Translations under genes and position numbers: made by a program
In this document: positions 265-21,608 of the stretch, piece after piece
Numbering within the stretch: the first letter of the stretch is position 1
Layout: every line of letters starts with the position of its first letter
Source: Terrimicrobiaceae bacterium
Lineage (GTDB): Bacteria; Verrucomicrobiota; Verrucomicrobiia; Chthoniobacterales; JAATET01
DNA: 46,342 bases
Reading direction: 5' to 3'
Assembly (NCBI GenBank): GCA_028713285.1
Contig: JAQTOP010000019.1
Location: forward strand, 1-46,342
The notes under the pieces: model-generated
Database searches by the model: none
What the model was told of the DNA's origin: nothing
The model's input: the letters and a program-made list of their open reading frames with translations, nothing else

Positions 265-292
265 TTGGCCTCGCCGTTGCATGTGCTATGTT
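265..292 (+). promoter_or_regulatory. Candidate promoter of the glutaredoxin gene (nearly leaderless)
   Basis: TTGGCC at 265-270 and TATGTT at 287-292 are separated by 16 bases, with an extended TG two bases before the -10. The ATG at 307 is only 14 bases past the -10, so transcription would start within about 10 bases of the start codon. The same pattern recurs before other genes in the window. Confidence 0.5.
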
Positions 293-306
293 CCCGCCAC
301 CGATCC

Positions 307-642
307 ATGGCCAATCCCGAAATCACCGCCTACCTGAAGACATCCTGCGGCTGGAGCGCCGGCGTGCGCGCCGTCCTCGCCAAATACGACCTGCCCTACG
401 AGGAAAAGGATATCATCAAGAATCCCGCCTTCCGCTGGGAGATGGAACAAAAGAGCGGCCAGCCCCTCTCGCCCTGCGTGGAGGTGAACGGCACGATGAT
501 CGCGGACATCAGCGGCGAGGAACTCGAGCGCTGGATGCTTGAGAAAGGCCTCGTCGGCTCGAGCGAAAAGACGACCAGCGTCCCGCTCAACGCCGCCTGC
601 ACGGACGAAGAGCACGCCGCCATGGTGCGCTTGAAAGTCTGA
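307..642 (+). CDS. Glutaredoxin family protein with CGWS active site
   Basis: 111 residues with a thioredoxin fold of the glutaredoxin type. The active site is CGWS (residues 14-17, after KTS), close to the CGFS of monothiol glutaredoxins rather than the dithiol CPYC. A cis-proline segment follows in QPLSPCVEVNG, with an extra cysteine right after the proline. The family reduces mixed disulfides with glutathione or carries iron-sulfur clusters; which applies here cannot be told. ATG 307 is preferred over the upstream in-frame TTG at 265 because it starts directly before the first beta strand (EITAYLKT) and because 265 lies in the candidate -35 element. The gene is closed by a strong terminator at 665-700, so it is monocistronic. 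Confidence 0.85.
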   Translation: MANPEITAYLKTSCGWSAGVRAVLAKYDLPYEEKDIIKNPAFRWEMEQKSGQPLSPCVEVNGTMIADISGEELERWMLEKGLVGSSEKTTSVPLNAACTDEEHAAMVRLKV

Positions 643-664
643 CTTCATCCGGGATTCCTTTTCC

Positions 665-700
665 AGGCTCGCTCCGGCTTGATCGGTGCGAGCCTTTTTT
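665..700 (+). terminator. Rho-independent terminator after the glutaredoxin gene
   Basis: AGGCTCGC at 665-672 pairs perfectly with GCGAGCCT at 688-695, loop of 15 bases, followed by a run of six T (695-700). It sits 23 bases after the stop codon. Confidence 0.85.
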
Positions 701-795
701 GCGTCTGCGCGCCATGGCATTTCCTTTTGCAACGCTCTCGTTCGGAGAAAACTCTTGCCGGGCAATAGCCCTGCCGGTAGAGGCAGTGCCGTCGC

Positions 796-1500
796 ATGGG
801 GAATCGAGGAATGTCGCAGGAGCGTTGGTTTCTGATTGGAGCGGCCGCCCTGGCCGCAGGCGCCTGCTTCGCCTTTCGCTGGACGCATCCCATCGACGTC
901 GCGATCACCGAAATCAAATGGAGTCTGCTCATCGGTCACGGCGACCAGATCGCCGACCACGCTGCCAGGATTGCCGGACGCATCCAATACCGCACATCGG
1001 CTTGCGTTCACTACGGCTGGATCTTCGCGAAGCGGGGCCGGGCCGATGCGGCGGAGGCGTTTTTCCGCGCGGCTGAAGACGCCGACGCTTTCGATCCCGT
1101 CGGTCCCGAGGCCCTTGCCGGCCTGTATTTCAGCCAGCATCGCCTCGACGACGTGCGCCGCGTCTTCGCCCGCACTTCCGCACGGGGCACGATTCTCACG
1201 CCCGAAGGCCTTCGCATGCAGGCCAGCATCCAAATCGTCGATGGCCAATATGCCCAGGCGAGCGAAACCTTGGCGCGGCTCGCAGCGCAGGAGATGCCCA
1301 CGGCCGAAATCCTCGCCAAACTCGGCGACCTCGCCACATGGCAAAAGAAATTCCCGGCCGCCATCGCGTATTACCGCCAGGCTCGCAAACTGACGCCGGA
1401 CGATCTGGAGCTTCGCATTCGGCTCACCCGCGCACTCGCCTGGGCCGCCCTGGGCGATGCCCGTGCAGCCATGCAGCATCCCGAAATCGCCGCTCGATGA
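796..1500 (+). CDS. Membrane-anchored TPR protein, first gene of the polysaccharide operon
   Basis: 234 residues. One hydrophobic segment near the N-terminus (about residues 12-28, WFLIGAAALAAGACFAF) suggests an inner-membrane anchor or uncleaved signal. The rest is alpha-helical with tetratricopeptide-like repeats (for example PVGPEALAGLYFSQHRLDDV and the block around FPAAIAYYRQARKLTPDD). The first ATG is at 796; ATG 811 (MSQERW) is an equally reasonable start. The stop codon overlaps the next start in ATGA (1497-1500), showing translational coupling. TPR proteins in alginate, Pel, Pga and cellulose systems scaffold the synthase and the outer-membrane pore across the periplasm; the same role is inferred here from position only. 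Confidence 0.78.
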   Translation: MGNRGMSQERWFLIGAAALAAGACFAFRWTHPIDVAITEIKWSLLIGHGDQIADHAARIAGRIQYRTSACVHYGWIFAKRGRADAAEAFFRAAEDADAFDPVGPEALAGLYFSQHRLDDVRRVFARTSARGTILTPEGLRMQASIQIVDGQYAQASETLARLAAQEMPTAEILAKLGDLATWQKKFPAAIAYYRQARKLTPDDLELRIRLTRALAWAALGDARAAMQHPEIAAR

Positions 1501-2138
1501 AGTTCCACCGGCGCGCCGCACTCTCCCTGCTCTGCGTCGCCGCCTTCCCGGGCGCCCCCTCATCCGGACTTTCGCAACCGGCTCCCACTGCGGACACCGA
1601 CGCAACATCCGTTCCGATCGGCGAAGACGAGGCGCGCATCGAACTCACGCGCCTCCTCCGCTACGACAAGCGCTTTACCGAGGCGATTTCGGAATACCGC
1701 GAACTCATTCGCAAGATGCCGGATCGCACCGACCTCCGGTTGGAACTCGCCGAGCTCTACGGCGCGGTCGGCGAGACGGACAACGCCTTCAAAGCGATCT
1801 CAGGCATCGATGAATCGAAGCTCGACCGTCGCGGCCTCTTGATCATTGCGAACCTCGAGGCCCAAAAGAAGAACTTCGACAAGGCCATCGGCATTCTTCG
1901 CGGCCTGCTCGCGAAGGAGCCCGGCGATCCCGCGCTCCAGCTCCAGCTCGCGAAGACCCTCAGTTGGGCGAAGAACTACGAGGAATCTCTCAAACTCTAC
2001 GCCGCCCTGGTCGCGGCCGCCCCCGCCGATGTCCAGCTTCGCCGCCAATACGCCCGGGTGCTCGGCTGGGCGTCACATTACGACGACGCGATCGTGCAGT
2101 GGAAACTCACGCTCACTCCGAAGGCGTCCGCCCCATGA
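1497..2138 (+). CDS. Secreted TPR protein of the polysaccharide operon
   Basis: 213 residues. The start is a signal-peptide-like sequence (MKFHRRAALSLLCVAAFPG), followed by tetratricopeptide repeats over about residues 45-205 with typical spacing (RFTEAISEYRELIRKMPD, NFDKAIGILRGLLAKEPGD, NYEESLKLYAALVAAAPAD, HYDDAIVQWKLTL). Translation is coupled at both ends by ATGA overlaps with the flanking genes. It is probably a periplasmic scaffold binding the barrel protein encoded next, in the way AlgK serves AlgE. No lipobox cysteine was seen. The specific partner is inferred. Confidence 0.8.
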   Translation: MKFHRRAALSLLCVAAFPGAPSSGLSQPAPTADTDATSVPIGEDEARIELTRLLRYDKRFTEAISEYRELIRKMPDRTDLRLELAELYGAVGETDNAFKAISGIDESKLDRRGLLIIANLEAQKKNFDKAIGILRGLLAKEPGDPALQLQLAKTLSWAKNYEESLKLYAALVAAAPADVQLRRQYARVLGWASHYDDAIVQWKLTLTPKASAP

Positions 2139-4159
2139 CCTGCCGCCCGGGCCTCGCATTTCTCCCCCTCCTCGCCCTGCTTTCCGCGTTTGTCGCTCCT
2201 TCGCCGGCTGCCATCGAGCCGCGCAACCCACCCGGCTCCGACGGAACCGGGGAGACCATCTCCGACGCGGATGCGACCCTGGCGCTCGCGCGCGATCTGG
2301 CGGCGGTGCCCGCCCATCGCACCGAGGCCCTCGCGCTCTACGCCCAGCTTCTCACCGAGTCCCCCGGCTCGGTCGCGCTGCTCCGGGAGCATCGCAATAC
2401 CGCTTCCAAACTCGCGCGTCCCGACCTCGTGGCCAGCGATTTCGCCACCCTCGAAAAATCCGGGCCTCTCAGCGCGGAAGAGACGCTGTGGTATGCCGGC
2501 GCCTTGCAAAAGCTGGGCCGCAACGACGAGACGATGGCGCTCATCGAGCAGCAGCTCGGCGGGGCTGGCGACCAGACCGCCCTCCTCGCGCTCTACCTCG
2601 AGGCTGCCAGCGCCGCGCACGAGCGGTCCCGCGCGGAAAAAAAACTCGCCCTGCTCGCCGCGCGGCACCCCCGCCGCGCCGACCTCGCCATCGCCTCCGC
2701 CACGCTCGCCCGGGAGCGCTCCGACCCCGCCACGGCGGAATCCGCTCTCCGGGCCGCCCTCGCCGCTGATCCCGATAATCCCGGCCTCCTCAAATTGCTC
2801 GCGGAGATTCTCTTCGCGCGGGACCAGCCGCGAAAGGCCCTCGTCATTTATTGCCGCGCCGTCTCGGCCGCACCGAATGACGTTCCCCTACGCCGCCAGA
2901 CGGCCCGCGTCGCGGAAATCTGCCACGACACCCGCGCGGTCGATGCCCTCCTCCAGCCGGTCATCCATTCGCCGGCAATCCCCGCGAAGGAGCGTGCGGC
3001 GACTGCCCTCGAAGCCCGCGGGATGGCCGCGCTCCGTGCCGGGCGATACCCCGAGGCCCTCCACGCCTATACGAAGCTCTGCGCCGCGGAGCCCGGCAAT
3101 GTTTCCGCCGACTACGGTCGCGCCGCCGCCCTCCGCGGGGCGGGCGCACTCAACGCGGCCCGGACTGCCTATCGCGACCTCCTGCAGGCCGATCCCAACG
3201 CCGCATACGCCCGGAATGCGGCGAACCAGATCACGAACGAACTCCGCAATCGCCTGCGGGCCGCCTACCTCTTCATCAACGAGGATTCTCCCGGCCGCAT
3301 GGCCGACATTTCGCGGAACATCTTCACCGTTTCCGACGAATTCTGGCTCACCGACCGCCTCAAAATGAGCCTCGGGGGCCGCACATGGATCGAGCAGCCG
3401 GAAGGCATCGGCTCACCCTACGTCGCCACCGGTGCGACTGCGACCGTCGATTACCGCATCGCCGCCTCGTGGCGCGTGAACCTCAATTACACGTTCAAAA
3501 ACTACACGACCCGCTCTCTGCGCGACACGCACAACGGGGGCGCAGCGCTGGCCTTCAATCCCTCGAAGGCTCTCGGACTCTACGCCAGCTACCAGCACGA
3601 GGACGCCCTGACCAACCGCTACAATTTCACCCAAAGCACGCAGAGCGACACCGGACGCCTGTCGTTCGAGAGCCAGCCGCTTCACTGCCTGGAAGTTTCG
3701 GGCAGCGCCTTCCTCCGCGGCTATTCCGATCAGAATCTCCAGTTCGGCGCCGACGGCGGGGCCGGGCTCGTCCTGCTGCGAGATCCCGGCAAACTCGTCA
3801 CGGAATTGCGCGGGCAGTATCTCACCACGCAGCACCAAAGTGAGTCCGAGTTCACCGACGGCGAAGAGACGAACGTGATCCATCCCTACTGGACGCCCCG
3901 CAACTATTTCCGCGGCTCGCTCGGGGTGAACTGGGAGCAATCGCTCCGGCCCGCCGCAAGCGCCGATCAAAACGAACTCGGCTACCGCGCCGGCGTGCGG
4001 GGCAGCCTCGACACGGACGGCAATCCCGCCATCGCTTTCGACGCCGCCCTGCGCTGCGAAATCGCCCGCCATCTGCTCGTCGATCTCGGCGGCCAGATCG
4101 AGCGTTCCCCGCAATGGAATGGCGCTACCGCATCCGTCTCCGTCGCTTATGCGTTCTAA
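2135..4159 (+). CDS. TPR / outer-membrane beta-barrel polysaccharide export porin (PgaA/BcsC/PelB-like architecture)
   Basis: 674 residues from ATG 2135, which overlaps the preceding stop. A signal peptide (about residues 1-26, ending SPAA) is followed by TPR-like helical repeats to about residue 370. From RLRAAYLFINED onward the protein alternates polar and hydrophobic residues, is rich in aromatic residues, and ends in a terminal phenylalanine (SVSVAYAF), the signature of a BAM-assembled outer-membrane barrel. The barrel part is about 300 residues, the right size for a 16-strand pore as in PgaA, PelB and BcsC. This layout is typical of porins that pass a polymer through the outer membrane. 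It overlaps the synthase gene by 11 bases, which supports joint function. Homology to one particular family cannot be proved by eye. Confidence 0.8.
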   Translation: MTCRPGLAFLPLLALLSAFVAPSPAAIEPRNPPGSDGTGETISDADATLALARDLAAVPAHRTEALALYAQLLTESPGSVALLREHRNTASKLARPDLVASDFATLEKSGPLSAEETLWYAGALQKLGRNDETMALIEQQLGGAGDQTALLALYLEAASAAHERSRAEKKLALLAARHPRRADLAIASATLARERSDPATAESALRAALAADPDNPGLLKLLAEILFARDQPRKALVIYCRAVSAAPNDVPLRRQTARVAEICHDTRAVDALLQPVIHSPAIPAKERAATALEARGMAALRAGRYPEALHAYTKLCAAEPGNVSADYGRAAALRGAGALNAARTAYRDLLQADPNAAYARNAANQITNELRNRLRAAYLFINEDSPGRMADISRNIFTVSDEFWLTDRLKMSLGGRTWIEQPEGIGSPYVATGATATVDYRIAASWRVNLNYTFKNYTTRSLRDTHNGGAALAFNPSKALGLYASYQHEDALTNRYNFTQSTQSDTGRLSFESQPLHCLEVSGSAFLRGYSDQNLQFGADGGAGLVLLRDPGKLVTELRGQYLTTQHQSESEFTDGEETNVIHPYWTPRNYFRGSLGVNWEQSLRPAASADQNELGYRAGVRGSLDTDGNPAIAFDAALRCEIARHLLVDLGGQIERSPQWNGATASVSVAYAF

Positions 4160-5840
4160 CAAAACCTCGTCCCGAACCGCTCCCGCGCGAACGATCATCT
4201 TCGTGACGATCTCCGCTCTGGTGCTGGCGGTGCTGTATATCATCGGGCACGCCATGCTCATCTCACTGAGCGAGTTGAACGTCCCCGAACTCATCGCGAT
4301 GTCGCTGCTCATCGCCTGCGAAATCTTCATGTTCCTCCACGCGGTCGCCTACTTTTCGAATGTTGCCCACGTCAACGCCCACGCCATCGATCCCGATCGG
4401 ATCGTCGCCGCCCCGGCTCCGCTGACGACCTTCCCGCCGGTCGCCTTCGCCATTTGCTCCTACCGCGAACCGCTCACCGTGCTGGAAGCGAACATGATTT
4501 GCTTCCGCAACCTCACCTATCCGAACAAGCGCCTCTTCCTCCTCGACGATACGCCTTACGACCGCACGAACGACGATCCCGCCCTCGCCCGCTACCGCGC
4601 CGACGTGGACGCGCTCGCCCGACAGATCGGCATCAATGTCTTCCGCCACTCGTGGCGCGGCGCCAAGGCGGGCATGATCAACGATTTCCTCCACTTCCTC
4701 GGCGGCCGGGATGAGCCCGGCTTCGAGATGGCCCCCAATCAAAACGTCAAGATACTCCGCGACGCCAGATACCTCGCGATCTTCGACGCGGACATGAATC
4801 CGCTGTCGGACTTCGCGGAGCCCCTGATTGCGCAGCTCGAGGCGGACGACCGGCTCGCCTTCGTCCAGACCCCGCAGTTCTACTCGAACATCTCCACAAA
4901 CCGCGTGGCAAACGGCGCCGCCGCCCAGCAGGCCGTCTTCTACGAATACATTTGCGAAGGCAAGGGCATGCTCGACACCATGCCGTGCTGCGGCACGAAT
5001 GTGATGTTCCGCGTCGCCGCACTCGAGGACGTGGGCGGAATGGACGAGTCGTCCGTCACCGAGGATTTCGCGACATCGATCAAGCTCCACCTCCGCGGCT
5101 GGCGCTCGACCTACCTGAACCGCGTGTGCGCCTTCGGCATGGGGCCGCAGGATCTCGGGTCGTTTTTCAAGCAGCAATTTCGCTGGGCCTCCGGCACGGT
5201 CGGCCTGCTGCGCGTGGTATTGAAGGAGTTCGTTAAGAATCCCCGCGCCTTCTCGCCGCGCCGCTGGCTCGAGTATTTCGCCTCGGTCTCGTTCTACTGC
5301 GTCGGATGGGTCTGGCTCATCATCTGGTCGTTCCCGGTGCTTTACGTCTTCGTCGGCTTTCCCCGCAACCTCGCCCGGCCCGACGTCTTCTTCGCGCTGT
5401 TTATTCCCTATCTCGCCTTCACCTTCTGGGCCTTCATCGGCTCGCTCCGCTACCGCGGCTACAGCACGGCCGACGTTTTCAGCGGCATGACGATGAACGT
5501 CATCAGCTTCCCGGTTTACATGATGGCCTCCGCCTGCGGACTGCTGGGGATCCGTGGCAAATTCCGCGTTACCTCGAAGGAAGGCGCGACCTCGATGCCG
5601 CTCCTCCTCCTCTGGCCGCAGCTCGCCGTCTTCTGCGTCCTCGTTGTGACGGTTGCATGGGGGCTGAACCACCTGATCTATGGCACGCTTTCGGCCGGCG
5701 CCGTCTTTGGAAACATCATCTGGTGCGCCTACAATGCCGCCATGATCGGCACGATCCTCTATTTCAATCGCCCGACCGAAAAAGTCGGCCTGTTCCGCCG
5801 CGAACGCCGCTTGAAAACGCCCAGGGCCGCGAATGCTTAG
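4149..5840 (+). CDS. Processive family-2 glycosyltransferase (cellulose/mannan-synthase-like)
   Basis: 563 residues. Two N-terminal membrane segments (about 15-38 and 46-68), a cytosolic GT-A domain, then about five to six C-terminal membrane segments (380-545). Catalytic motifs are complete: DD at 133-134, DAD at 213-215, QTPQ at 240-243, TED at 304-306 and QQFRW at 342-346. KAGMIN and CCGTN correspond to conserved BcsA blocks. Such enzymes polymerise a sugar nucleotide at the inner membrane and push the chain through their own channel. Unlike BcsA there is no C-terminal PilZ domain; a separate PilZ gene lies immediately downstream on the opposite strand. The substrate is unknown; the GH26 gene nearby suggests mannose. 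ATG 4149 is chosen because it starts right before the first membrane segment. The stop overlaps the convergent gene's stop by 3 bases. Confidence 0.85.
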   Translation: MRSNKTSSRTAPARTIIFVTISALVLAVLYIIGHAMLISLSELNVPELIAMSLLIACEIFMFLHAVAYFSNVAHVNAHAIDPDRIVAAPAPLTTFPPVAFAICSYREPLTVLEANMICFRNLTYPNKRLFLLDDTPYDRTNDDPALARYRADVDALARQIGINVFRHSWRGAKAGMINDFLHFLGGRDEPGFEMAPNQNVKILRDARYLAIFDADMNPLSDFAEPLIAQLEADDRLAFVQTPQFYSNISTNRVANGAAAQQAVFYEYICEGKGMLDTMPCCGTNVMFRVAALEDVGGMDESSVTEDFATSIKLHLRGWRSTYLNRVCAFGMGPQDLGSFFKQQFRWASGTVGLLRVVLKEFVKNPRAFSPRRWLEYFASVSFYCVGWVWLIIWSFPVLYVFVGFPRNLARPDVFFALFIPYLAFTFWAFIGSLRYRGYSTADVFSGMTMNVISFPVYMMASACGLLGIRGKFRVTSKEGATSMPLLLLWPQLAVFCVLVVTVAWGLNHLIYGTLSAGAVFGNIIWCAYNAAMIGTILYFNRPTEKVGLFRRERRLKTPRAANA

Positions 5841-6823
5841 ACCGCATCCGGCCGCACGAATTCCTCGGCCAGGAGAACGAGCGAATTGTAATGGGTCGCG
5901 AGTTTGCGATCCGAAAGACGGATGGATCGCAAATAACCGGCGCTCTCCGGCGTCCTTAGCAAACGCCGCAGCGAAAATTCGTTGATTTCGGGGCGGATGG
6001 CGCTGCGAAAACGGAGCAGAAATTCTCCCAGGCGTTCATTGCCATTCAGTGCTCCGAAGCTTTGAATCAGTTCCTCGATCGTCGCGATATTTTCCCGGAT
6101 CCGGCGCTCGGTGTGGTCGAGACTCATGCGCTTGAATAGGGAAAGGGCGACCCGATCCACCTTGGAAAGACGCGCCAGCAAAGGCGCGAGGTGGCCGAGG
6201 TAAAGAATCATCGCCCGCTTGACAAAGATGGCGTCGTCCAGCACCCAGCGGAACAGCTCGGTTAATTCCCGATAAGGCCTCCCCGACGAATGAGCCGCCA
6301 CCGAGAGGCCGGAGGAAAAGTCGAACATCACGCCGTAATCGCCGCTGCCGCGGTTGCTAAGTTTCACCCCGCAGATGAATCCGTCCTCCCGAGGCACCAC
6401 CCAGCGCAGGTCACAATGGTTCAGGACTTCGCTGTCGATCCGAAACGGCAAACAAAGGTCCAGGTGTTCGCCGGCCTCAATCCCGCGCTCGGGCGGCATG
6501 CGCACCTCCATTTGCATTCCGCCCGCGGAAACATCCAGGGGACGATATTCGAAACTCGTCTTCATATCGCCCAGCCAGCCGACGAGAGGCGAGCCGGCCG
6601 AGAACCTCCAGCGCTCCCGACCGCGGCGCTCCTTCGTCAGAGGCGGCTCCACCGAGTGTGCCAGCAAAGTCATCACGGGATCGTGTTCCCGACTTTCCTC
6701 CGGTGAGATGGCCTCCGCGAGAAGCGTCTCGAGACGTCGCCGGATTTCTCGATTTTCGTCTTCCGGACTCGTTGTAGAAGGTAAATCCAACGGCGTTGGC
6801 TCCTCCGCGCTGGCGTCAGTCAT
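5837..6823 (-). CDS. PilZ-domain protein (candidate c-di-GMP receptor of the polysaccharide locus)
   Basis: 328 residues from ATG 6823; an upstream in-frame ATG at 6886 would add 21. A flexible acidic N-terminus is followed by a PilZ domain at about 65-195: the arginine motif lies in ERRGRERWR (R67/R71 or R69/R73) and the second motif is DVSAGG (D97, S99, G102), matching RxxxR and D/NxSxxG. The remaining 130 residues are helical, with no membrane segment (LDDAIFVKRAMILYL, RRIRENIATIEELIQ). PilZ domains bind cyclic di-GMP and activate polymer synthases (BcsA C-terminus, Alg44). The gene is convergent with the GT2, with stop codons overlapping, so it is transcribed separately. That it acts on this synthase is inferred from proximity. 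Confidence 0.82.
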   Translation of the reverse strand: MTDASAEEPTPLDLPSTTSPEDENREIRRRLETLLAEAISPEESREHDPVMTLLAHSVEPPLTKERRGRERWRFSAGSPLVGWLGDMKTSFEYRPLDVSAGGMQMEVRMPPERGIEAGEHLDLCLPFRIDSEVLNHCDLRWVVPREDGFICGVKLSNRGSGDYGVMFDFSSGLSVAAHSSGRPYRELTELFRWVLDDAIFVKRAMILYLGHLAPLLARLSKVDRVALSLFKRMSLDHTERRIRENIATIEELIQSFGALNGNERLGEFLLRFRSAIRPEINEFSLRRLLRTPESAGYLRSIRLSDRKLATHYNSLVLLAEEFVRPDAV

Positions 6824-7008
6824 CTTTGCATTCCCCCTGGCGACGCATAGCGGAACCCACCTTCCGATGCAACGTCCATTCCCCATGTCGCGAACCTAAC
6901 TAAGTTCCTCTCTGGAAAGTCTCCAAGTATTTCTCTTGACGCCGGCGTGCGGAAAGTCCAACCCAATGGCCCCAAATTCATGTCACCTAATGAAAAAGGG
7001 GATTGGAG

Positions 7009-8679
7009 ATGGGAAATAACATTGGGAATTTAGCGGACGCTCCTTCATGGCGCCGCCCGACCGTGCTGGCGGCCGCTGCCGGCCTCCTGTTCGCAGCGCA
7101 TGCGTTCGCCCTGTCGCCGCTGGAGCCGGCGACTGGCTGCTATCTGGGCATCAGCGCCCCGACGCCGGACCTTCTCACGGTTGACTGGAAGACCGCGCTT
7201 GGCCTCGAGCCGGCAACCTACGCCATCTTTTGTGAATTCCCGCTCAATGGCGGCGACGAAACCGATCTCGACGCGCTCGTGAAGCGGAACAACCTGATCG
7301 GCGCAATCACCCTCATCACCTTGGAACCCAGCGGCGGACTCGACACCGTCACCCAGGCGGCCTGCGACACATTCGCCGCCCGGTGCGCCCTTTACGAGGG
7401 CACCGGCGCGAAGTTGATGATCCGGTTTGCCCACGAAATGAACGGCTTCTGGTATAGCTGGGGGCAAAATCCGGCCGCCTACGTGGCAAAGTACCAAATG
7501 CTGGCGACCGCGATTCACGCTGCAACCAAGCAAACCGCCATGGTCTGGGCTCCGAACAACGGCCTCGGTTACCCCTACAAGTCTTACGCGTCGGTTCCCT
7601 TCCCCGAACTCGACACGAACAGCGACGGCCAGTTCAACACGCTCGACGACCCCTATTCCCCCTACTACCCGGGCGACGCCTACGTCGATTGGGTCGGCAT
7701 GTCGGTCTATCACTGGGGCGGCAATCAGAACGTTGTGCCCACCGACCAGGAATTCACGAATCTCCTGACCGGATACAACGGAGCCGCCCCGAATTTCTAC
7801 ACCCGCTATTGCTCCGATCTCGTGCATCACAAGCCACTGATCGTGCCGGAATCGTCCGCGCTGTATCTGGCAGGCGCTCCCGGCGCCGACACGAACCTCG
7901 CCATCAAACAGGGCTGGTGGCAGCAGCTCTTCAATACCAGCGGGCAGACGACGAGCGCCCTCGATATTTCGCTCAGCTTCCCGATGCTGAAAATGATTGT
8001 CTGGTTCGACTACAAAAAACTCGAGTCCACGGTTCCCGGAACCACGGAGGTGGATTGGAGGCTGAACGGAACCGGCGTCGAGCCGATCGCCACGGCGTTT
8101 TCCCAATTCATCGAAACCCAGCGCGCGGCGAAGGCCTGGCTGCTCGGCCTCAGCGACTTCACTGCGGCGAGCTACTTCATCAACCTCGCCAATGTTCCGG
8201 CGTCCATTCCGGCAACCGGCGCCTTCGCCGTTCCCCTCACCGTCAGCTCGCCCACCGACGCCGACTTGATCGTGAACATTCTAGAAAAGGACGCACTCGG
8301 CAATTTCAACTTCGTCGGCGGCACGCCCCGCGCCACGCCCGCCTTCGTTGCGGCCGGCACCCAAAACCACGCCATCGCGATTTCCGCCAGCGCCCTGACC
8401 TCCCTAGTGATTGGCGGCACCTACTATTGGCAGGCCTTTCTCCTGCCTCCCGGCGCGGCATGGCCGAACATCTACGGGGCGACCCCGCAAATCAAAGTGG
8501 GCGCCGTCGTGGCCGCGACGACCGTGGACGCCAACGCCGCCGCGTATGCCGCCAAGCTGAAAAAAATCCAGAAGGCGATGAAGAAAGCCAAGAAGATCGC
8601 CGATCCGGTGGCCCGGGCCAGGGCGCTCAAAAAACTCAAGGCGCAACTGAAGGCGCTGAAGAAGAAATACGGCAAATAG
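7009..8679 (+). CDS. Secreted GH26-family glycoside hydrolase (beta-mannanase-like) with lysine-rich tail
   Basis: 556 residues. A signal peptide spans about 1-35 (TVLAAAAGLLFAAHAFA). The acid/base motif RFAHEMNGFWYSW (E143) is the GH26 signature, and PLIVPESSA (E281) fits the nucleophile strand. An insertion at about 202-214 (DTNSDGQFNTLDD) looks like an EF-hand or dockerin-type calcium loop. Residues 370-510 form a beta-rich accessory domain, and the last 40 residues are strongly basic (KLKKIQKAMKKAKK; KKLKAQLKALKKKYGK), perhaps binding polyanions or the cell surface. ATG 7009 has an AGGGG ribosome binding site about 7 bases upstream; a TTG at 7003 would add two residues. GH26 members cleave beta-1,4-mannans, less often beta-1,3-xylan or mixed glucans. 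Synthase loci usually carry a hydrolase for their own polymer, which makes this the best clue to the product. Confidence 0.82.
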   Translation: MGNNIGNLADAPSWRRPTVLAAAAGLLFAAHAFALSPLEPATGCYLGISAPTPDLLTVDWKTALGLEPATYAIFCEFPLNGGDETDLDALVKRNNLIGAITLITLEPSGGLDTVTQAACDTFAARCALYEGTGAKLMIRFAHEMNGFWYSWGQNPAAYVAKYQMLATAIHAATKQTAMVWAPNNGLGYPYKSYASVPFPELDTNSDGQFNTLDDPYSPYYPGDAYVDWVGMSVYHWGGNQNVVPTDQEFTNLLTGYNGAAPNFYTRYCSDLVHHKPLIVPESSALYLAGAPGADTNLAIKQGWWQQLFNTSGQTTSALDISLSFPMLKMIVWFDYKKLESTVPGTTEVDWRLNGTGVEPIATAFSQFIETQRAAKAWLLGLSDFTAASYFINLANVPASIPATGAFAVPLTVSSPTDADLIVNILEKDALGNFNFVGGTPRATPAFVAAGTQNHAIAISASALTSLVIGGTYYWQAFLLPPGAAWPNIYGATPQIKVGAVVAATTVDANAAAYAAKLKKIQKAMKKAKKIADPVARARALKKLKAQLKALKKKYGK

Positions 8680-8683
8680 CGGC

Positions 8684-8709
8684 GCGAGCGGGCTCATTGC
8701 CCGACTCGC
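8684..8709 (+). terminator. Hairpin after the GH26 gene, probable terminator
   Basis: GCGAGCGGGC (8684-8693) pairs with GCCCG-A-CTCGC (8699-8709) around a 5-base loop, with one bulged A. Only a weak T-rich stretch follows, so it may be inefficient. It begins 5 bases after the stop codon. Confidence 0.5.
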
Positions 8710-8738
8710 TTGTCATCATGCACACGACGGGTTATCAA
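8710..8738 (+). promoter_or_regulatory. Candidate promoter of zwf
   Basis: TTGTCA at 8710-8715 and TATCAA at 8733-8738 are spaced by 17 bases, 20 bases before the zwf ATG at 8759. It lies just behind the GH26 terminator, as expected for a new transcription unit. Confidence 0.45.
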
Positions 8739-8758
8739 GACGGGCCCATCCGACACCC

Positions 8759-10290
<1,532 letters not shown>

Positions 10291-10294
<4 letters not shown>

Positions 10295-11340
10295 GCGATC
10301 TCGTCACCATCACTCCCGGCCTGCCTGTCGAGATCGGACGCATCGAAAAGGAACTCGGGAAGCTCTGGGAGGAAAGCGGCGACGGGAAGACGCGGGCCTC
10401 GCTCATCAACCTCGCGATCTACACGGAGTCCGCAGCCGCCGTGGACCGAAACACGGAACTCATCGCGCAGATCGCCACCGAGCACGCCTGCCGCGCCATC
10501 CTCATTTTCGCAAACCGCACCGCCGCCGAGCGCGGCGCGAAGGCATGGATCAACGCCCACTGCCACGCCGCCGGAAAGCACGAGATTTGCTCCGAGCAGA
10601 TCACCTTCCAGCTCGACGGCGATTCCCCCTCGGCGCTCACGAACGTCGTCTTCGCCCACCTCGACAGCGACCTGCCGCTTTGCTTCTGGTCGCAGGCCCC
10701 TTTCCGCGAGCCGCTCGACTCGCGCCTCTGGAGCTGGATCGACCGCCTCATCTTCGACAGCAACGACTGGGACGACCCGGCGGCGCAATTCGCCCTCGTC
10801 CGCAAAATCGCCACCCTCGGCGAGGTGCGCACCGCGCTGTGCGACCTCAACTGGACCCGCCTGCTCAGCCTGCGCCTCGGCCTCGCCCATTTTTTCGACA
10901 ACGCCTGCGCGCTGCCGTATCTCCGCCAGCTCGACCACGTGGAAATCGTCCACGCACCCGGCGCCCGCATCTCCGCGCTGCTCCTGCTCGGCTGGCTCGC
11001 CCATCAGCTCGACTGGAAGCTCGATTCCGTGCTCGGCCGCCACGCCTTCCGCGCGCCGGATCGCCGCGAAGTCACCTTCGAGTTCGTCATGCGGCCCGGC
11101 GCCTGCATCTCCTCGTGCCGCCTCGCCGCAGGCGACGCGAGTTTCCAGCTCGACCGCGCGCAGCACGATCAATTCTACCACGCAACAATGAGCGGCGGAC
11201 GCTTCGAGGCCTCGTCGCAACTCCTGCCCGCCGGACGCGACCGCATCACGGAGACGCTCCTCATGGAACTCAGCCGCGGCGGCCGGCACCCGCTCTATTT
11301 GAAGGCACTCGACGCGATCCAGCCCCTCCTCGCGGAGTGA
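10291..11340 (+). CDS. opcA: Glucose-6-phosphate dehydrogenase assembly/subunit protein OpcA
   Basis: 349 residues from GTG 10291. This start overlaps the zwf stop (GTGA) and has a GGAGG ribosome binding site at 10281-10285 with 5-base spacing; an ATG at 10279 is in frame but would place the site inside the gene. The sequence shows the OpcA pattern: an N-terminal region with VDRNTELIAQIATEHACRAI, a central LPLCFWSQAP segment followed by SRLWSWIDRLIFDSNDW, and LCDLNWTRLLSLRLGLAHFF. In cyanobacteria and actinobacteria OpcA activates G6PDH. The zwf-opcA pairing supports the call. The exact mechanism in this organism is not known. Confidence 0.9.
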
Positions 11341-16607: not shown

Positions 16608-19004
16608 TCAGCGCCCGGTCCGTCGCTGCGGCGTGTAGATGAGCAGGCGCAGGCCGTTGAGGCAAACCAGCACGGTGCTGCCTTCGTGGCCGACCACGCC
16701 CAGCGGAAGCGGCAGGGCGAAGCCCAGCGCCGCCGAGATGAGGACGACGATGACTCCCGTTGCAAAGGTGAGGTTCTGCTGCAACACGCGGCGGGCATGA
16801 CGCGCGACGCCGAGCAGGATCGGGATATTCTCCAAGCGGTCGCCCATCAGCACGACATCGGCGGTTTCCATCGCAATATCCGTCCCGGCCGCGCCCATGG
16901 CCACGCCGAGATCCGCGGTCGCGAGGGCCGGAGCGTCGTTCACTCCATCCCCCACCATCATCACGCGCCCCTGCTTCTTGAGCGCGCGGATCGCCTGCAC
17001 TTTGGCCTCGGGGAGGAGCTCGGCGTGAACCTCATCGACCCCCGCCTCCTCGCCGATGGCCCGGGCGACGGCGGATTGGTCGCCGGTGAGCATTACGATT
17101 TTTTTGACACCAAGCCGGCGCAGGCTGGCGGCAACTTCCCGCGCCTCCGGCCGCAGCGTGTCGGCAAGGGCCAGCACCGCCTTTGCCTTGATCGCATCGC
17201 CCTCGCGCTCACCCATCCAGACGCACGTTTTGCCCTTCGCGAGCAACGGAGCCACGGCCGAGGCAAAAGCATCCATGCCCGCAGCGCGCAGCTCGCGAAA
17301 CAGCCGTTCGCTGCCCATGACGATGCGGACACCCTGCACCGTGGCCTCGGCGCCCTTGCCCGGCGTGGACTGGAAATCGGTAGCGGGCGGCAGGGAAAGG
17401 CCCATCTGGTGGGCGCCGCGGACGATTGCCGCAGCGAGCGGGTGCTCGGATTTGGCTTCCAGCGCGGCGGCGGCGGACAGGAGCGCGGCCGCGGAGGGAT
17501 CGAGGTTTTCTGCGATCGCATGGACTCCCGCGACGGTGAGGATCTCGGTGACGGTGGGCTTGCCGACCGTGAGGGTGCCGGTCTTGTCGAACGCGACGAT
17601 GTCGATCTGTGCGGTGCGCTCGAGATGCGAACCGCCCTTAATAAGAATGCCGCGCCGGGCCGCGCCGCCGATGGCGGACAGGACGGTGGCCGGCGTGCTG
17701 ATGACCAGCGCGCAGGGCGACGCGACGACCATGATGGTCATGGCGCGGAAAAAGGCGTCGCCAAACGCCTCGCGCCACAGCAGCCACGGCACGAGCAGCA
17801 CGAGCGCGGTGAAGGCGATCACCCCTGCGGCGTAGTATTGCTCGGCCTGTTCGAGGAAACGCTGGGTGCCCGACTTCTCGGCCTGCGCCTCGGCGACGAG
17901 CTTCACCATGCGGGAAAGCGTGGAATCCTCCGCGCGCCGGGAGACAGTCAACTCGATGCCGCCGCTCTGGTTGAAGGTGCCGGCGAAGAGGTTGCTGCCG
18001 ACGCCCTTGGAAACCGGCATGGATTCGCCCGTGAGACTGGATTCATCCACGCTGCTCGAGCCTTCGCAGACGGCGCCGTCCACGGGAATGTGCTCGCCGG
18101 GCCGAACGACGACGATGTCGCCGATCTGCAAATCCTCGACGGGCACGAGCCTGGTGACGGAGCCGCGTTTCACCAGGGCCTTGTCGGGGCGAAGGGTGAG
18201 CAGCGACTCGATGGCCTTCTGCGTGCGCTCCATGGCGTAGCGCTGGAGCACGTTCGAAAAGCTGAAGAGAAATAGCAGCAGCGCTCCCTCGAACGGCGCG
18301 CCGACGAGCGCAGCGCCCAATGCTGCGAGCACCATGAGCACATCCACGTCGAGCACGCGCTGGCGCAGCGACGCGATGGCGGATCGCACGCCCTGCTGAC
18401 CGCAAAAAATGTAGGCTCCGGCGTAGAGTGTGCCTGCGGCAACCCCGCGGCCGGCGAAATGATCCATGAATAAGCCGGCGGCGAGGAAAATGGTGCCCAG
18501 TGCGCACGAGATCTCCTCGTTGAGATCCCCGGTTCGGATCCTTTGCCCCAGGCTCACCCCTCCGCGCAGGGTCTCGAGCGGACGGATGCGGGCGCCGGCC
18601 TCGCGCACCTCGCGCAGGATTCGACTCTCCGGCGCCGCGGACCGGTCGAACGTGAGACACAGGACCCGCCCGACATAGGTGGCTGTGGCGCGACGCACGC
18701 CCGGGATCTCCCCCACCCGGCGCTCGAGCTTGAGCGCGCACGCTTCGCACGCCTTGCCATCGAGGCGGAAGGCGGATTTCTGCAGGCCGTCGCGCTCGAT
18801 CTGCACATGCTCGCGCGCGATCTGGCGAATATCCTCCTCGCTGAGACGGGCGGGGTCGAATTCGATCTCGATGGCGGACTTTTCGGGAATCGGATGGATG
18901 GCCACGACGCCGGCATGGTCGGCGATCGTGTGGCTCGAGGCATTCAAGCGCCCCGGGTCGGCGGGGACCTTTTTCGCCTGCAGAAATGTGATGTCGCGTT
19001 CCAT
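16608..19004 (-). CDS. P1B-4-type heavy-metal exporting ATPase
   Basis: 798 residues. The N-terminus holds a ferredoxin-like HMA domain with CEAC (C86, C89), then membrane segments, the actuator loop, the transmembrane SPC motif ([13 protein letters not shown]), the phosphorylation site [11 protein letters not shown] and the hinge [13 protein letters not shown]-terminal HEGST motif precedes the last helices. SPC together with HEGS/GT marks subgroup P1B-4, whose members export Co2+, Fe2+ or Zn2+; Cu and classic Cd/Zn pumps carry CPC. It is the second gene of a two-gene operon, 27 bases behind a VIT-family transporter gene. The metal cannot be fixed from sequence; iron(II) is favoured by the partner gene. 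Confidence 0.92.
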
Positions 19005-19031
19005 GGAGGCTCGATCCGAATCGCGGCCCGC

Positions 19032-19724
19032 CTAGGCGGTGAAAAGCCTGGCTACATAATACGCCACGGCAGCCGCAATGCCTCCCACCATGAGGGTTTG
19101 AAATCCGCTGCGGATTTTGGAGACGCCGGTGAAATGCCCCTTCACGAAACCGAAAACCGCAAGCGCGCTCAAGGTGAATCCCACGGAGAACAGGAGCGCG
19201 GTATGGGAATCCTGCGTCGCAATATATGGCGAAAGGGGAATGATGCCGCCCGCGACGTAGGCTCCGGCGATGGTCACGGCGCTGGCCAGCGCGCGCTTCG
19301 GGTCCGGTTCCTCGAGTCCCAGCTCGAACCGCATCATGAAATCGCGCCAGGCATCCGGGCGCCTTTTGAGCCCGGCGACAATCGGAGCGGCTTCCTCCGG
19401 CGTGAGGCCGTAGGTGGCCAGCAGGTCGGCCACCTCCTTTTCCTCCGCCGCGGGTTTCTCGATGATCTCCGCCTCCTCCCGCTTGCGTTCGGAAAAGTAA
19501 TGCTCGGCTTCGCCCCTGGCCGCGAGATAGCCGCCGAGGCCCATGGCGATGGAGCCGGCGGCGATCTCGGCGATGCCGGCCGTCACCACGATATGGTTCG
19601 CGCTGATCGCGCCCGAAATTCCCGCCGCCAGCGCGAACGGCACCGTCAGGCCGTCAGCCATTCCGATGACGATATCACGAACGGTATCGGTTCCTTGAAA
19701 GTGCGCTTCCCGGTGAATGATCAT
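19032..19724 (-). CDS. VIT1/CCC1-family Fe2+/Mn2+ transporter
   Basis: 230 residues with five predicted membrane helices. Helix 1 carries DIVIGMADGLTVPFALAAG, typical of the VIT/CCC1 family, followed by GIAEIAAGSIAMGLGGYLAA. A cytosolic helical metal-binding loop rich in Glu and His follows (EAEHYFSERKREEAEI, PAAEEKEVADLL), as in plant VIT1. The last helices are GGIIPLSPYI and the following two. Family members move iron(II) or manganese out of the cytosol. It is first in the operon with the P1B-4 ATPase, so the pair may form a two-route ferrous or manganese detoxification module. An FNR-type box lies about 78 bases upstream of the start. Confidence 0.92.
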   Translation of the reverse strand: MIIHREAHFQGTDTVRDIVIGMADGLTVPFALAAGISGAISANHIVVTAGIAEIAAGSIAMGLGGYLAARGEAEHYFSERKREEAEIIEKPAAEEKEVADLLATYGLTPEEAAPIVAGLKRRPDAWRDFMMRFELGLEEPDPKRALASAVTIAGAYVAGGIIPLSPYIATQDSHTALLFSVGFTLSALAVFGFVKGHFTGVSKIRSGFQTLMVGGIAAAVAYYVARLFTA

Positions 19725-19795
19725 AGGCTCGCTGCCGACCTTATGCTACAGAGCATCCAGCCGCGACGCCAGACTGCGCGCGTGCGACAAAATCG

Positions 19796-19809
19796 TTGAT
19801 CGAAATCAA
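19796..19809. promoter_or_regulatory. Perfect FNR/Anr-type box upstream of the VIT-ATPase operon
   Basis: TTGATcgaaATCAA matches the FNR-family consensus TTGAT-N4-ATCAA at all ten fixed positions, and the symmetry extends by one base each side (GTTGAT/ATCAAC). Its centre is about 78 bases before the VIT start codon, and a TAGCAT -10-like element lies at 19748-19743 on the minus strand. It is 24 bases before the start of the plus-strand phosphoesterase pseudogene, which it could once have served instead. Direction and regulator are inferred. Confidence 0.55.
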
Positions 19810-19832
19810 CTCTCTCCCTAGGAATCGCCCGC

Positions 19833-20346
19833 ATGCGCTGCATCCGCGCCCTCGCCTGTTTCGCCGGCCTGCTCCCCGCCGCCGCGCTGCACGCCGCACC
19901 CGTTTACGGAGGGCGCGGACATCACCCAAGGCTACGGCATCCAGCATCCGATTCCTACGTCAACGGCACACTCCGCGCGAGCCAGCCGAATTATTACTGG
20001 CTCTTCTCGGGCTCGAACCAGGGCATCCTCACCGATACCCATCCCGACGCGCCGTTCACCAACGCGGCGAATCTCTACACGGCCCTCGCCGCCGCCGGCA
20101 GAACCTTCGGCGGTTTGGTGGGCGCCCACCCCCGTGCCGACAGCCTTTATCACGATGGAACGAATTACGCCGTCCGCCACGTCCCCTGGCCCGGCTTCTC
20201 GAACGTGCCCGCTGGCCTCACGGAGTCCTTCACCACCGGCCGCCCTGCCGCTGCTCATTCTCGGGGCCGCCGCCACTGTCGCCGCAGTCGTGGCATCGTG
20301 TTCATCTCGCCATCGCAAGCGGGCGAGCCCCGCGCCGCCCGCCTGA
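19833..20346 (+). pseudogene. Rearranged remnant of a secreted phosphoesterase (acid phosphatase family)
   Basis: A signal peptide is intact (MRCIRALACFAGLLPAAALHA). Then fragments of the PF04185-type phosphoesterase family appear: GADITQGYGIQHP in a second frame, SDSYVNGTLRA and SQPNYYWLFSGSNQG in the first frame, later NYAVRHVPWPGFSNVPAGL. In intact proteins the order is (P)Y(I/V)NGTL, then the TxSYxxxHP block, then SQPNY; here the first two blocks are swapped, and the catalytic ENHS segment is missing. After about 20235 the frame shifts into a C-terminal anchor (LPLLILGAAATVAAVVASC then RHRKR), ending at TGA 20344-20346. Metal-binding residues are mostly lost, so it is non-functional. Confidence 0.6.
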
Positions 20347-20386
20347 CCGCTTCAATTTTTCGCAAACTGTGCTAGCCTTTCCCGAA

Positions 20387-21271
20387 ATGCGCGGAATCAT
20401 TCGCCCCATCGCTCTGCTCATCGCGACTCTCTTCGCGCTTTGCTTCCGCCCAGCCCTGGCGGTGCAGACGAGCGGCGGCTACGTGACAACCGAGCCGACG
20501 GACTCCGACGTGGCGAACTGGACGACCGGCTGGGGCGCGACCGGCATCACAGGCTGGGACTACGTGGGCAACGTCAACGGCCCGAGCGGCGTCTATATCG
20601 GCAATGGCTGGGTCATGACCGCCGGCCACGTGGGCCCCGGGGATTTCACGCTGGCCGGCATTATCTACAGCTACGTCGGCGGCTCCGAGCGGTCCATATC
20701 CAACGCCAAAGGCACGGCAGACCTCATCCTTTTCCAGATCGCCACCGCCCCCGCGCTGCCTCCGCTCACGATTTCCAGTTCGTCTCCCAGCGTCGCCTCC
20801 TACTTCGTGAGCGGCAGCACGGTCGTGATGATCGGCTACGGCGGCGGTCAAGGCGAAACCTGGGGCGCGAACACCGTCACCGCGAAAAACGTCTCCGTCA
20901 CCGTCTCGGGTTATTCCTACGTGACCACGGACTTCAAAACCGCCTATGGCACGACCACCTACACAAACGGCTTGGGCGACTCGAGGAGTATTACGAACAA
21001 TGCGACGCTCGTCGGGGGCGACTCGGGCGGCGGCGGCTTCATTTACAACTCCGCCACGGCGCGCTGGCAGCTCGCGGGGATCAATGAAGCGGTCGATCTC
21101 ACAAGCAGCGACAGCTACCTCGTGCAGCTCAGCACCTACGCGTCTCAGATCAACGGCCTCACCGCCGTCCCGGAGGCGGGACTCGCCGGCCTCGTAGGCG
21201 CCGCCGGCCTGCTGCTGCCGATTCTCGCGCGACTGCGGCGGCGAAGGGCGCAGACTCCACGCGAAAGATAG
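20387..21271 (+). CDS. Secreted trypsin-like serine protease with PEP-CTERM-type tail
   Basis: 294 residues. Signal peptide about 1-25 (RPIALLIATLFALCFRPALA). Catalytic triad of the chymotrypsin fold: histidine in NGWVMTAGHVG, aspartate in GTADLILFQI, serine in LVGGDSGGGGF. The C-terminus has a proline-variant sorting signal: VPEA, a hydrophobic stretch GLAGLVGAAGLLLPILA, then RLRRRR, matching PEP-CTERM proteins processed by exosortase. Mature enzyme would be surface-bound or released. ATG 20387 is preceded by a TAGCCT -10-like element 8 bases upstream, again leaving almost no leader. Substrate unknown. Confidence 0.85.
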   Translation: MRGIIRPIALLIATLFALCFRPALAVQTSGGYVTTEPTDSDVANWTTGWGATGITGWDYVGNVNGPSGVYIGNGWVMTAGHVGPGDFTLAGIIYSYVGGSERSISNAKGTADLILFQIATAPALPPLTISSSSPSVASYFVSGSTVVMIGYGGGQGETWGANTVTAKNVSVTVSGYSYVTTDFKTAYGTTTYTNGLGDSRSITNNATLVGGDSGGGGFIYNSATARWQLAGINEAVDLTSSDSYLVQLSTYASQINGLTAVPEAGLAGLVGAAGLLLPILARLRRRRAQTPRER

Positions 21272-21325
21272 GCGTCGTTTGCTCGATCGAGTGGAAGAGC
21301 TGCTGCATCAGCTATTTTGAGGTGC

Positions 21326-21346
21326 GCCCGTGAGTGCTTCACGGGC
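21326..21346 (+). terminator. Hairpin between convergent genes
   Basis: GCCCGTGA (21326-21333) and TCACGGGC (21339-21346) form a perfect 8-base stem with a 5-base loop, followed on the plus strand by a T-rich stretch (TGTCTTCGTTTCT). It lies 55 bases after the protease gene and overlaps the stop of the convergent DUF4287 gene. Confidence 0.5.
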
Positions 21347-21608
21347 TGTCTTCGTTTCTCGCTCCTTTCAGCAGTGCGTAGATGGCCATCGCATGACCGT
21401 GGCCGAGCTGGAAATCCTCCTTGAGCCATTTGACAATGGCACCCGCTTTCATGCCGGCGGCGAGCCGGCCTTTTGCCGTGAATCCCTTTTTCTCCGCGAG
21501 CGCCCGGAAGTCAGCGGGGCTTTTGCCCGTCTTCGCCTGAATGTAGGTGAGGTATTCCTGGTGGGACAGGGCGGTGTTCCAAGGTTCGGTCGACGGCCTG
21601 CCAATCAC
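21339..21608 (-). CDS. DUF4287 domain protein
   Basis: 89 residues from GTG 21608, which overlaps the DoxX stop (GTGA). Nearly the whole length is the DUF4287 pattern: LSHQEYLTYIQAKTGKSPAD, FRALAEKKGF, AGAIVKWLKEDFQLGHGHAM and AIYALLKG. The family is small, soluble, and has no known activity; it is often found beside SRPBCC and DoxX genes, as here. Translational coupling to DoxX makes joint expression likely. Confidence 0.88.
   Translation of the reverse strand: MIGRPSTEPWNTALSHQEYLTYIQAKTGKSPADFRALAEKKGFTAKGRLAAGMKAGAIVKWLKEDFQLGHGHAMAIYALLKGARNEDSP

Follow-up and report, generated by a model that had tools for sequence, protein, structure and literature searches.

Few kinds of synthase-dependent exopolysaccharide system are known, namely those for cellulose, poly-N-acetylglucosamine (PNAG), Pel and alginate, together with some beta-glucan synthases. 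The cellulose (Bcs) system has a processive synthase of glycosyltransferase family 2 (GT2), BcsA, with D, DxD, TED and QxxRW motifs, a gating loop and control through a C-terminal PilZ domain, and its set includes a porin that combines tetratricopeptide repeats (TPR) with a 16-strand barrel (BcsC) and an endoglycanase of glycoside hydrolase family 8 (GH8), BcsZ. The BgsA/BgsB and CrdS systems of Rhizobiales use a BcsA-like GT2 without a PilZ domain along with a partner of HlyD type, and BgsA of Sinorhizobium makes a mixed-linkage glucan when activated by cyclic di-GMP (c-di-GMP) (PMC5567048). Such a (1,3;1,4)-beta-glucan has also been demonstrated as the product of RiGT2, a GT2 of the Gram-positive Romboutsia ilealis that has PilZ fused at its C-terminus (PMC10374906). 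An outer-membrane TPR porin is paired with a GT2 both in the Pga (PNAG) system and in NfrA/NfrB of Escherichia coli. In the alginate system (Alg8/Alg44/AlgK/AlgE) the PilZ protein Alg44, a TPR protein and an outer-membrane porin are separate parts. Here, we describe a locus at positions 796-8679 of contig JAQTOP010000019.1 from a Terrimicrobiaceae bacterium of the Verrucomicrobiota (the analysed stretch of 46,342 nucleotides is called the window in the following), which we regard with high confidence as a synthase-dependent exopolysaccharide system, and an apparently undescribed one.

The locus consists of six genes, the reading frames of which are all open. The TPR protein TprA (796..1500, plus strand; Pfam TPR_19/TPR_14) begins with a hydrophobic segment, as one is also present N-terminally in the product of the first TPR gene in most relatives, and its likely place is the inner membrane, where it would be anchored with the TPRs facing the periplasm. 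The short TPR protein TprB (1497..2138, plus strand; Pfam TPR), 31-38% identical across the family, has a signal-like N-terminus and is probably periplasmic. A TPR-porin with an outer-membrane barrel (2135..4159) and the GT2 synthase (4119..5840, with an ATG at 4149 as the likely alternative start) follow, so that four genes on the plus strand overlap head to tail; the gene of a stand-alone PilZ protein (5837..6886, minus strand) is convergent and overlaps the end of the GT2 gene, and the gene of a secreted glycoside hydrolase of family 26 (GH26; 7003..8679, plus strand) comes next. Pfam matches exceed their cut-offs for TPR in the first three proteins, for GT2 and for GH26, and stay below the cut-off for PilZ. 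Gene content, positions, overlaps and the convergent arrangement are as an earlier prediction, made by a model from the sequence letters (in the following, the original prediction), had described them. Thus, a processive GT2, TPR proteins and an outer-membrane porin, the combination by which a synthase-dependent system is recognized, are found in one locus.

In the synthase, the characteristic motifs appear as DD (residues 143-144), DAD (223-225), TED (314-316) and QQFRW (352-356); they are conserved in a 16-row alignment, in which the phenylalanine of QQFRW and the key acidic residues are invariant, and the complete D-DAD-TED-QxxRW series of the original prediction is borne out. The gating-loop motif of FxVTxK type is kept as FRVTSK, with F482, T485 and K487 invariant. 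The closest solved relatives are BcsA proteins, and CelA (TIGR03030) is the best NCBIfam model, although with 174 bits against a cut-off of 699 and against the 871 reached by the true BcsA of the same genome; the PgaC model (TIGR03937) gives 62 bits against a cut-off of 422, which, along with the lack of a deacetylase among the six proteins, sets the locus apart from Pga, while NfrB is not matched by the GT2 profile of the family. The alignment to BcsA ends where the membrane domain of BcsA ends, the PilZ domain of the latter starting at about residue 580; the window protein stops past its last membrane segment, and PilZ is encoded by the separate gene. Two maximum-likelihood trees, with references that left out RiGT2, Alg8, verified CrdS and plant CslA, place the GT2 proteins of this family in a clade of their own, split at 100/100 from both the BcsA clade and the HlyD-partnered BgsA/CrdS-type clade, which are mutual neighbours. 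An approximately unbiased (AU) test rejects the grouping of the window GT2 with BcsA (p=3e-6); membership in BcsA was discarded on this ground and on that of the CelA score. The tree placement, proposed with the original prediction as a check, leaves the GT2 outside both clades. In the handful of references compared, BcsA proteins read QTPH, FFCGS and QRxRW, BgsA/CrdS-type proteins QTPQ, FCCG and QRxRW, and the window family QTPQ, CCGT and QQFRW. QTPQ and CCG are therefore common to this family and the rhizobial synthases, from which the locus differs in its separate GT2 clade and in having a TPR porin and a GH26, neither of which is present in the rhizobial stretches examined.

The porin model obtained with AlphaFold2 (pLDDT, the predicted local distance difference test score, of 79.9) combines a TPR solenoid with 16 long strands at residues 373-673, in agreement with the barrel of about 300 residues that had been estimated from the letters. 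When it was compared by Foldseek with 350,542 PDB chains, the five best matches were BcsC, BcsC, PelBC, BcsC and PgaA, and the model points to an exopolysaccharide export porin of the BcsC/PgaA/PelB type. The family BCSC_C (PF05420) is unmatched in the window porin and absent from the 25 commonest families of the relatives; it is matched at another contig of the same genome (C83), where a complete canonical cellulose operon with BcsA, BcsB, GH8 and BcsC is found (L111, G000:C83). A divergent cellulose system, in which plain beta-1,4-glucan would be made and GH26 would substitute for GH8, has to be weighed at this point, in the light of CelA being the best NCBIfam model, of the BcsC-like porin and of a PilZ fold nearest to that of BcsA. 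Indeed, a processive GT2 with its motifs and gating loop, PilZ control, a TPR porin of 16 strands and an endoglycanase in the set are features that the locus has in common with Bcs. However, the CelA score is below the cut-off, no BcsB, GH8 or BCSC_C match occurs among the six proteins, and the AU test as well as the QTPQ/CCGT motifs in place of QTPH/FFCGS separate the synthase from BcsA; furthermore, the PilZ protein is separate and carries an extra helical bundle, two extra TPR proteins are present, and the glycanase is a GH26. As the genome holds a full cellulose operon elsewhere, the window locus is a second, different system, and we consider it unlikely that cellulose is its polymer.

The nature of the polymer is approached best through the GH26. 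The window enzyme scores 25.3 bits with PF02156 (cut-off 20.2) and consists of a catalytic domain, a C-terminal region and a Lys-rich tail; the catalytic Glu145 (in HEMN) and Glu283 are invariant in the GH26 alignment. It belongs to a longer, divergent type, termed GH26b, which is also present in the congener G302 and as the second GH26 gene of a Desulfobacteraceae locus (L010). A pooled profile of 15 GH26 sequences of the family matches the lichenase CtLic26A of Clostridium thermocellum over the whole domain (E=6e-62), and the best mannanase only in part (2e-17); TWEP, YPGD, DGYNWGTT and KExDWR are motifs common to CtLic26A and the family. CtLic26A, although the closest solved relative, is a free enzyme that degrades plant polymers and lies outside any synthase locus. 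By sequence, the family GH26 is lichenase-like, and hydrolysis of (1,3;1,4)-beta-glucan is predicted for it.

The original prediction had read the GH26 as a mannan-type signature. A beta-mannan or glucomannan system would require that the GT2 uses GDP-mannose and that the GH26 is a mannanase. The replacement of QRxRW by QQxRW, seen here, is found in plant CslA mannan synthases as well, and counts for such a system. The nearest solved relatives of the GT2, however, are glucan synthases, and the pooled profile is far closer to the lichenase than to any mannanase. Mannanases do form the majority of characterized GH26 enzymes (PMC13390465, PMC6556568), but a published tree of GH26 places lichenases and mannanases on separate branches (PMC6556568). 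With the two E-values given above, mannan was abandoned as the leading reading, and we now consider it an improbable product; the better half of the earlier statement was its hedge, ‘or related glucan’. The product is probably a beta-glucan of some kind, and its further assignment as a mixed-linkage glucan, the likeliest single product, is tentative, being somewhat less well favoured than all other outcomes together. At the Desulfobacteraceae locus, where both GH26 types are present (L010:10742-12280), the C-terminal part of the GH26b is similar to a beta-agarase domain of known structure (8wae, E 1e-5), and is perhaps a carbohydrate-binding module.

How the synthase may be controlled is suggested by the PilZ protein. 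Its score with Pfam PilZ is 17.4 against a cut-off of 22.5, and 12 of the 17 members of its alignment match the model. The predicted structure (pLDDT 77) shows a beta barrel, with a bundle of helices at the C-terminus (about residues 205-349). Foldseek places it closest to the PilZ domains of the cellulose synthase BcsA (4hg6, Z 9.1 in a second comparison), the Alg44 PilZ structure being also among the matches. Both c-di-GMP motifs, RxxxR and DxSxxG, are present in the window protein; RxxxR and [DN]x[ST]xxG are kept in all 14 non-chlamydial members of the alignment, the latter being missing in the three chlamydial ones. DxSxxG is also missing in further members, L038 and L097 (chlamydial) and L087 (from the sample of the Desulfobacter phylum), so that the chlamydial proteins without it are L035, L036, L038, L039 and L097. 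GGDEF matches are absent from four of the chlamydial genomes that carry such a PilZ protein (G480, G832, G887 and G891), and number two in the genome of the window, 34 in Thiocapsa and 24 in Desulfobacter. Loss of the motif alongside that of GGDEF in Chlamydiota is what would be expected if c-di-GMP were the ligand, and the protein, on the basis of its motifs and modelled fold, is presumed to be the c-di-GMP receptor of the synthase. The persistence of the chlamydial PilZ with its motif lost, where no c-di-GMP enzymes are found, would imply a form that is independent of c-di-GMP.

A separate PilZ protein also bears on the comparison with alginate. The original prediction set the locus apart from that system through AlgX/AlgL and a lipoprotein AlgK, and should have added that alginate, too, has its PilZ in a separate protein. 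AlgX, AlgL and AlgG belong to the alginate system, whereas the window locus has a GH26 and a fusion of TPR and porin, its GT2 is nearest to BcsA among solved structures, and no lyase, epimerase or acetylase domain was found by Pfam among the six proteins.

Relatives were sought with the GT2 alone in 84,980 species genomes and their neighbourhoods were read with profiles built in this analysis; therefore, the co-occurrence of the other genes is not built into the search. The scan returned 44 clear GT2 relatives of 37-51% identity, mostly from Desulfobacterota, the rest from Thiocapsa and another purple sulfur bacterium, several Chlamydiota, Ozemobacter, Kiritimatiellota, Omnitrophota and a Neomarinimicrobiota bin, and the gene set recurs as a whole in at least seven phyla, among scattered bacteria. 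The order TPR-TPR-porin-GT2-GH26, usually with PilZ next, is found in nearly all neighbourhoods of sufficient length; in 59 locus fragments, which include a few duplicates and many contigs that end early, the porin is present 53 times, the operon-type GH26 50 times, GH26b three times and PilZ 33 times. About half of the relatives also encode a STAS protein next to the operon, and fewer of them an RsbW-like kinase and a PP2C phosphatase (such partner-switching loci include L010, L016-L019, L030, L035-L039 and others); the window has none of these genes.

The distribution is patchy. Samples contained the GT2 in seven of 297 genomes of the Desulfobacter phylum, seven of 116 of the Chlamydiota (the phylum of L035), one of 77 of the Thiocapsa family and three of 197 of the window's own order, these being the window, the congener G302 and a fragment at a contig end. 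The conservation of the set, on which the original prediction depended, is thus real but lies mainly outside the window's own order, in which it was not found to be wide. In the 116 Chlamydiota genomes the operon-type GH26 is present in seven, six of which are among the seven with GT2 (p=1.6e-8, not corrected for kinship). Together with the neighbourhood order, this is far above chance, and chance clustering of GT2 and GH26 was rejected. Two chlamydial cases differ in their state: on a Parachlamydiaceae chromosome (L038:7971-14000) a stop splits the GT2 and the porin is in several open pieces, so that this copy looks decayed, and genome G877 has two GT2 copies, on C18 and C144 (L095, L098).

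The same neighbourhoods bear on whether the GH26 might be an unrelated nutritional enzyme, a chance neighbour of the exopolysaccharide operon. In the window the convergent PilZ gene does separate it from the GT2, and its type differs from, and is longer than, the operon GH26 of the relatives. Yet a GH26 directly follows the GT2 in nearly all relatives, both types stand at one locus in L010, and in the congeners the GH26 is part of one unit with the operon, which makes a chance neighbour very improbable. In G302, a stretch with 76-81% DNA identity is collinear with window positions 282-11312, cassette included. In G310, the flanks (window 283-625 and 8779-10294) are both kept and lie 190 bp apart, the entire cassette (626..8778) being absent and replaced by these approximately 190 bp. 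The TPR proteins, porin, GT2, PilZ and GH26 were therefore gained or lost as one block. The flanking genes encode a glutaredoxin upstream (265-642, by Pfam) and, downstream, what reads in translation as a glucose-6-phosphate dehydrogenase (8759-10294); on the contig of G293 the region upstream is a different one. No repeats of mobile-element type were found at the ends of the locus, and its GC content (63%) is level with that of the remaining window (64%), so that base composition does not hint at a recent foreign origin. The genome pairs GH26 with a GT2 at another, different locus as well (L110:2867-7355; G000:C86, about 16866-21354), where a fusion of GH18, polysaccharide deacetylase and GT2 is followed directly by another GH26, which reaches 153 bits with the operon GH26 profile.

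Taken in full, an exopolysaccharide system for a (1,3;1,4)-type or other non-cellulosic beta-glucan with PilZ acting in trans is, in our judgement, a probable explanation of the locus. The GT2 would polymerise beta-glucan from a nucleotide sugar and extrude the chain through a membrane channel of its own. In the periplasm, the two TPR proteins, one anchored and one soluble, would guide the chain, and the TPR-porin would take it past the outer membrane; the secreted or periplasmic lichenase-like GH26 may trim or release it, a role that GH8 BcsZ has in the cellulose system. Activation of the synthase by c-di-GMP probably proceeds via the separate PilZ protein acting in trans on the conserved gating loop, as the counterpart of the C-terminal PilZ domain that BcsA has in cis. 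Several observations weigh against this explanation. BcsA needs BcsB, and no BcsB-like partner was found among the six proteins. Taken alone, the window GH26 reaches no more than 22.6 bits with CtLic26A (and about 15.5 or less with mannanases), so that its lichenase assignment draws mainly on the pooled profile and on the operon GH26 of the relatives; no other link is as uncertain as this one. The specificity of GH26 enzymes is also difficult to predict from sequence. The C-terminal helical bundle of the PilZ protein matches generic helical bundles only (Z of about 13 or less), and the PilZ protein might have a target other than the synthase. Finally, QTPQ/CCGT, seen in few references, is a resemblance and no proof of product.

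Searches of the open literature on GH26 with exopolysaccharide operons, partner switching, Chlamydiae and Desulfobacterota yielded no account of such a system, although absence there is not proof. The nearest reports are of a Wzx/Wzy cluster with GH26 in Actinoplanes (PMC13390465) and of multicellular magnetotactic bacteria in which Bcs homologues are spread over more than one locus (PMC11239054); the available part of a survey of polysaccharide pathways in sulfate reducers gives pel and xap types (PMC10553843), and the text of a large census of synthase-dependent operons leaves GH26 unmentioned (PMC7112194). It is a possibility, offered with some reserve, that the locus represents an undescribed class in at least seven phyla, defined by a (1,3;1,4)-type beta-glucan, a TPR-porin and a separate c-di-GMP-responsive PilZ protein, often with a partner switch, and with a c-di-GMP-independent form in Chlamydiota.

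If true, a further conserved kind of synthase-dependent system would lead one to expect polymers of the matrix in sulfate reducers, in purple sulfur bacteria and in environmental chlamydiae, and lichenase alone would suffice as the enzyme to test for such a matrix. The separation of synthase and PilZ would provide a natural test of PilZ gating in a BcsA-like channel, for which the chlamydial members would be natural motif-loss mutants.

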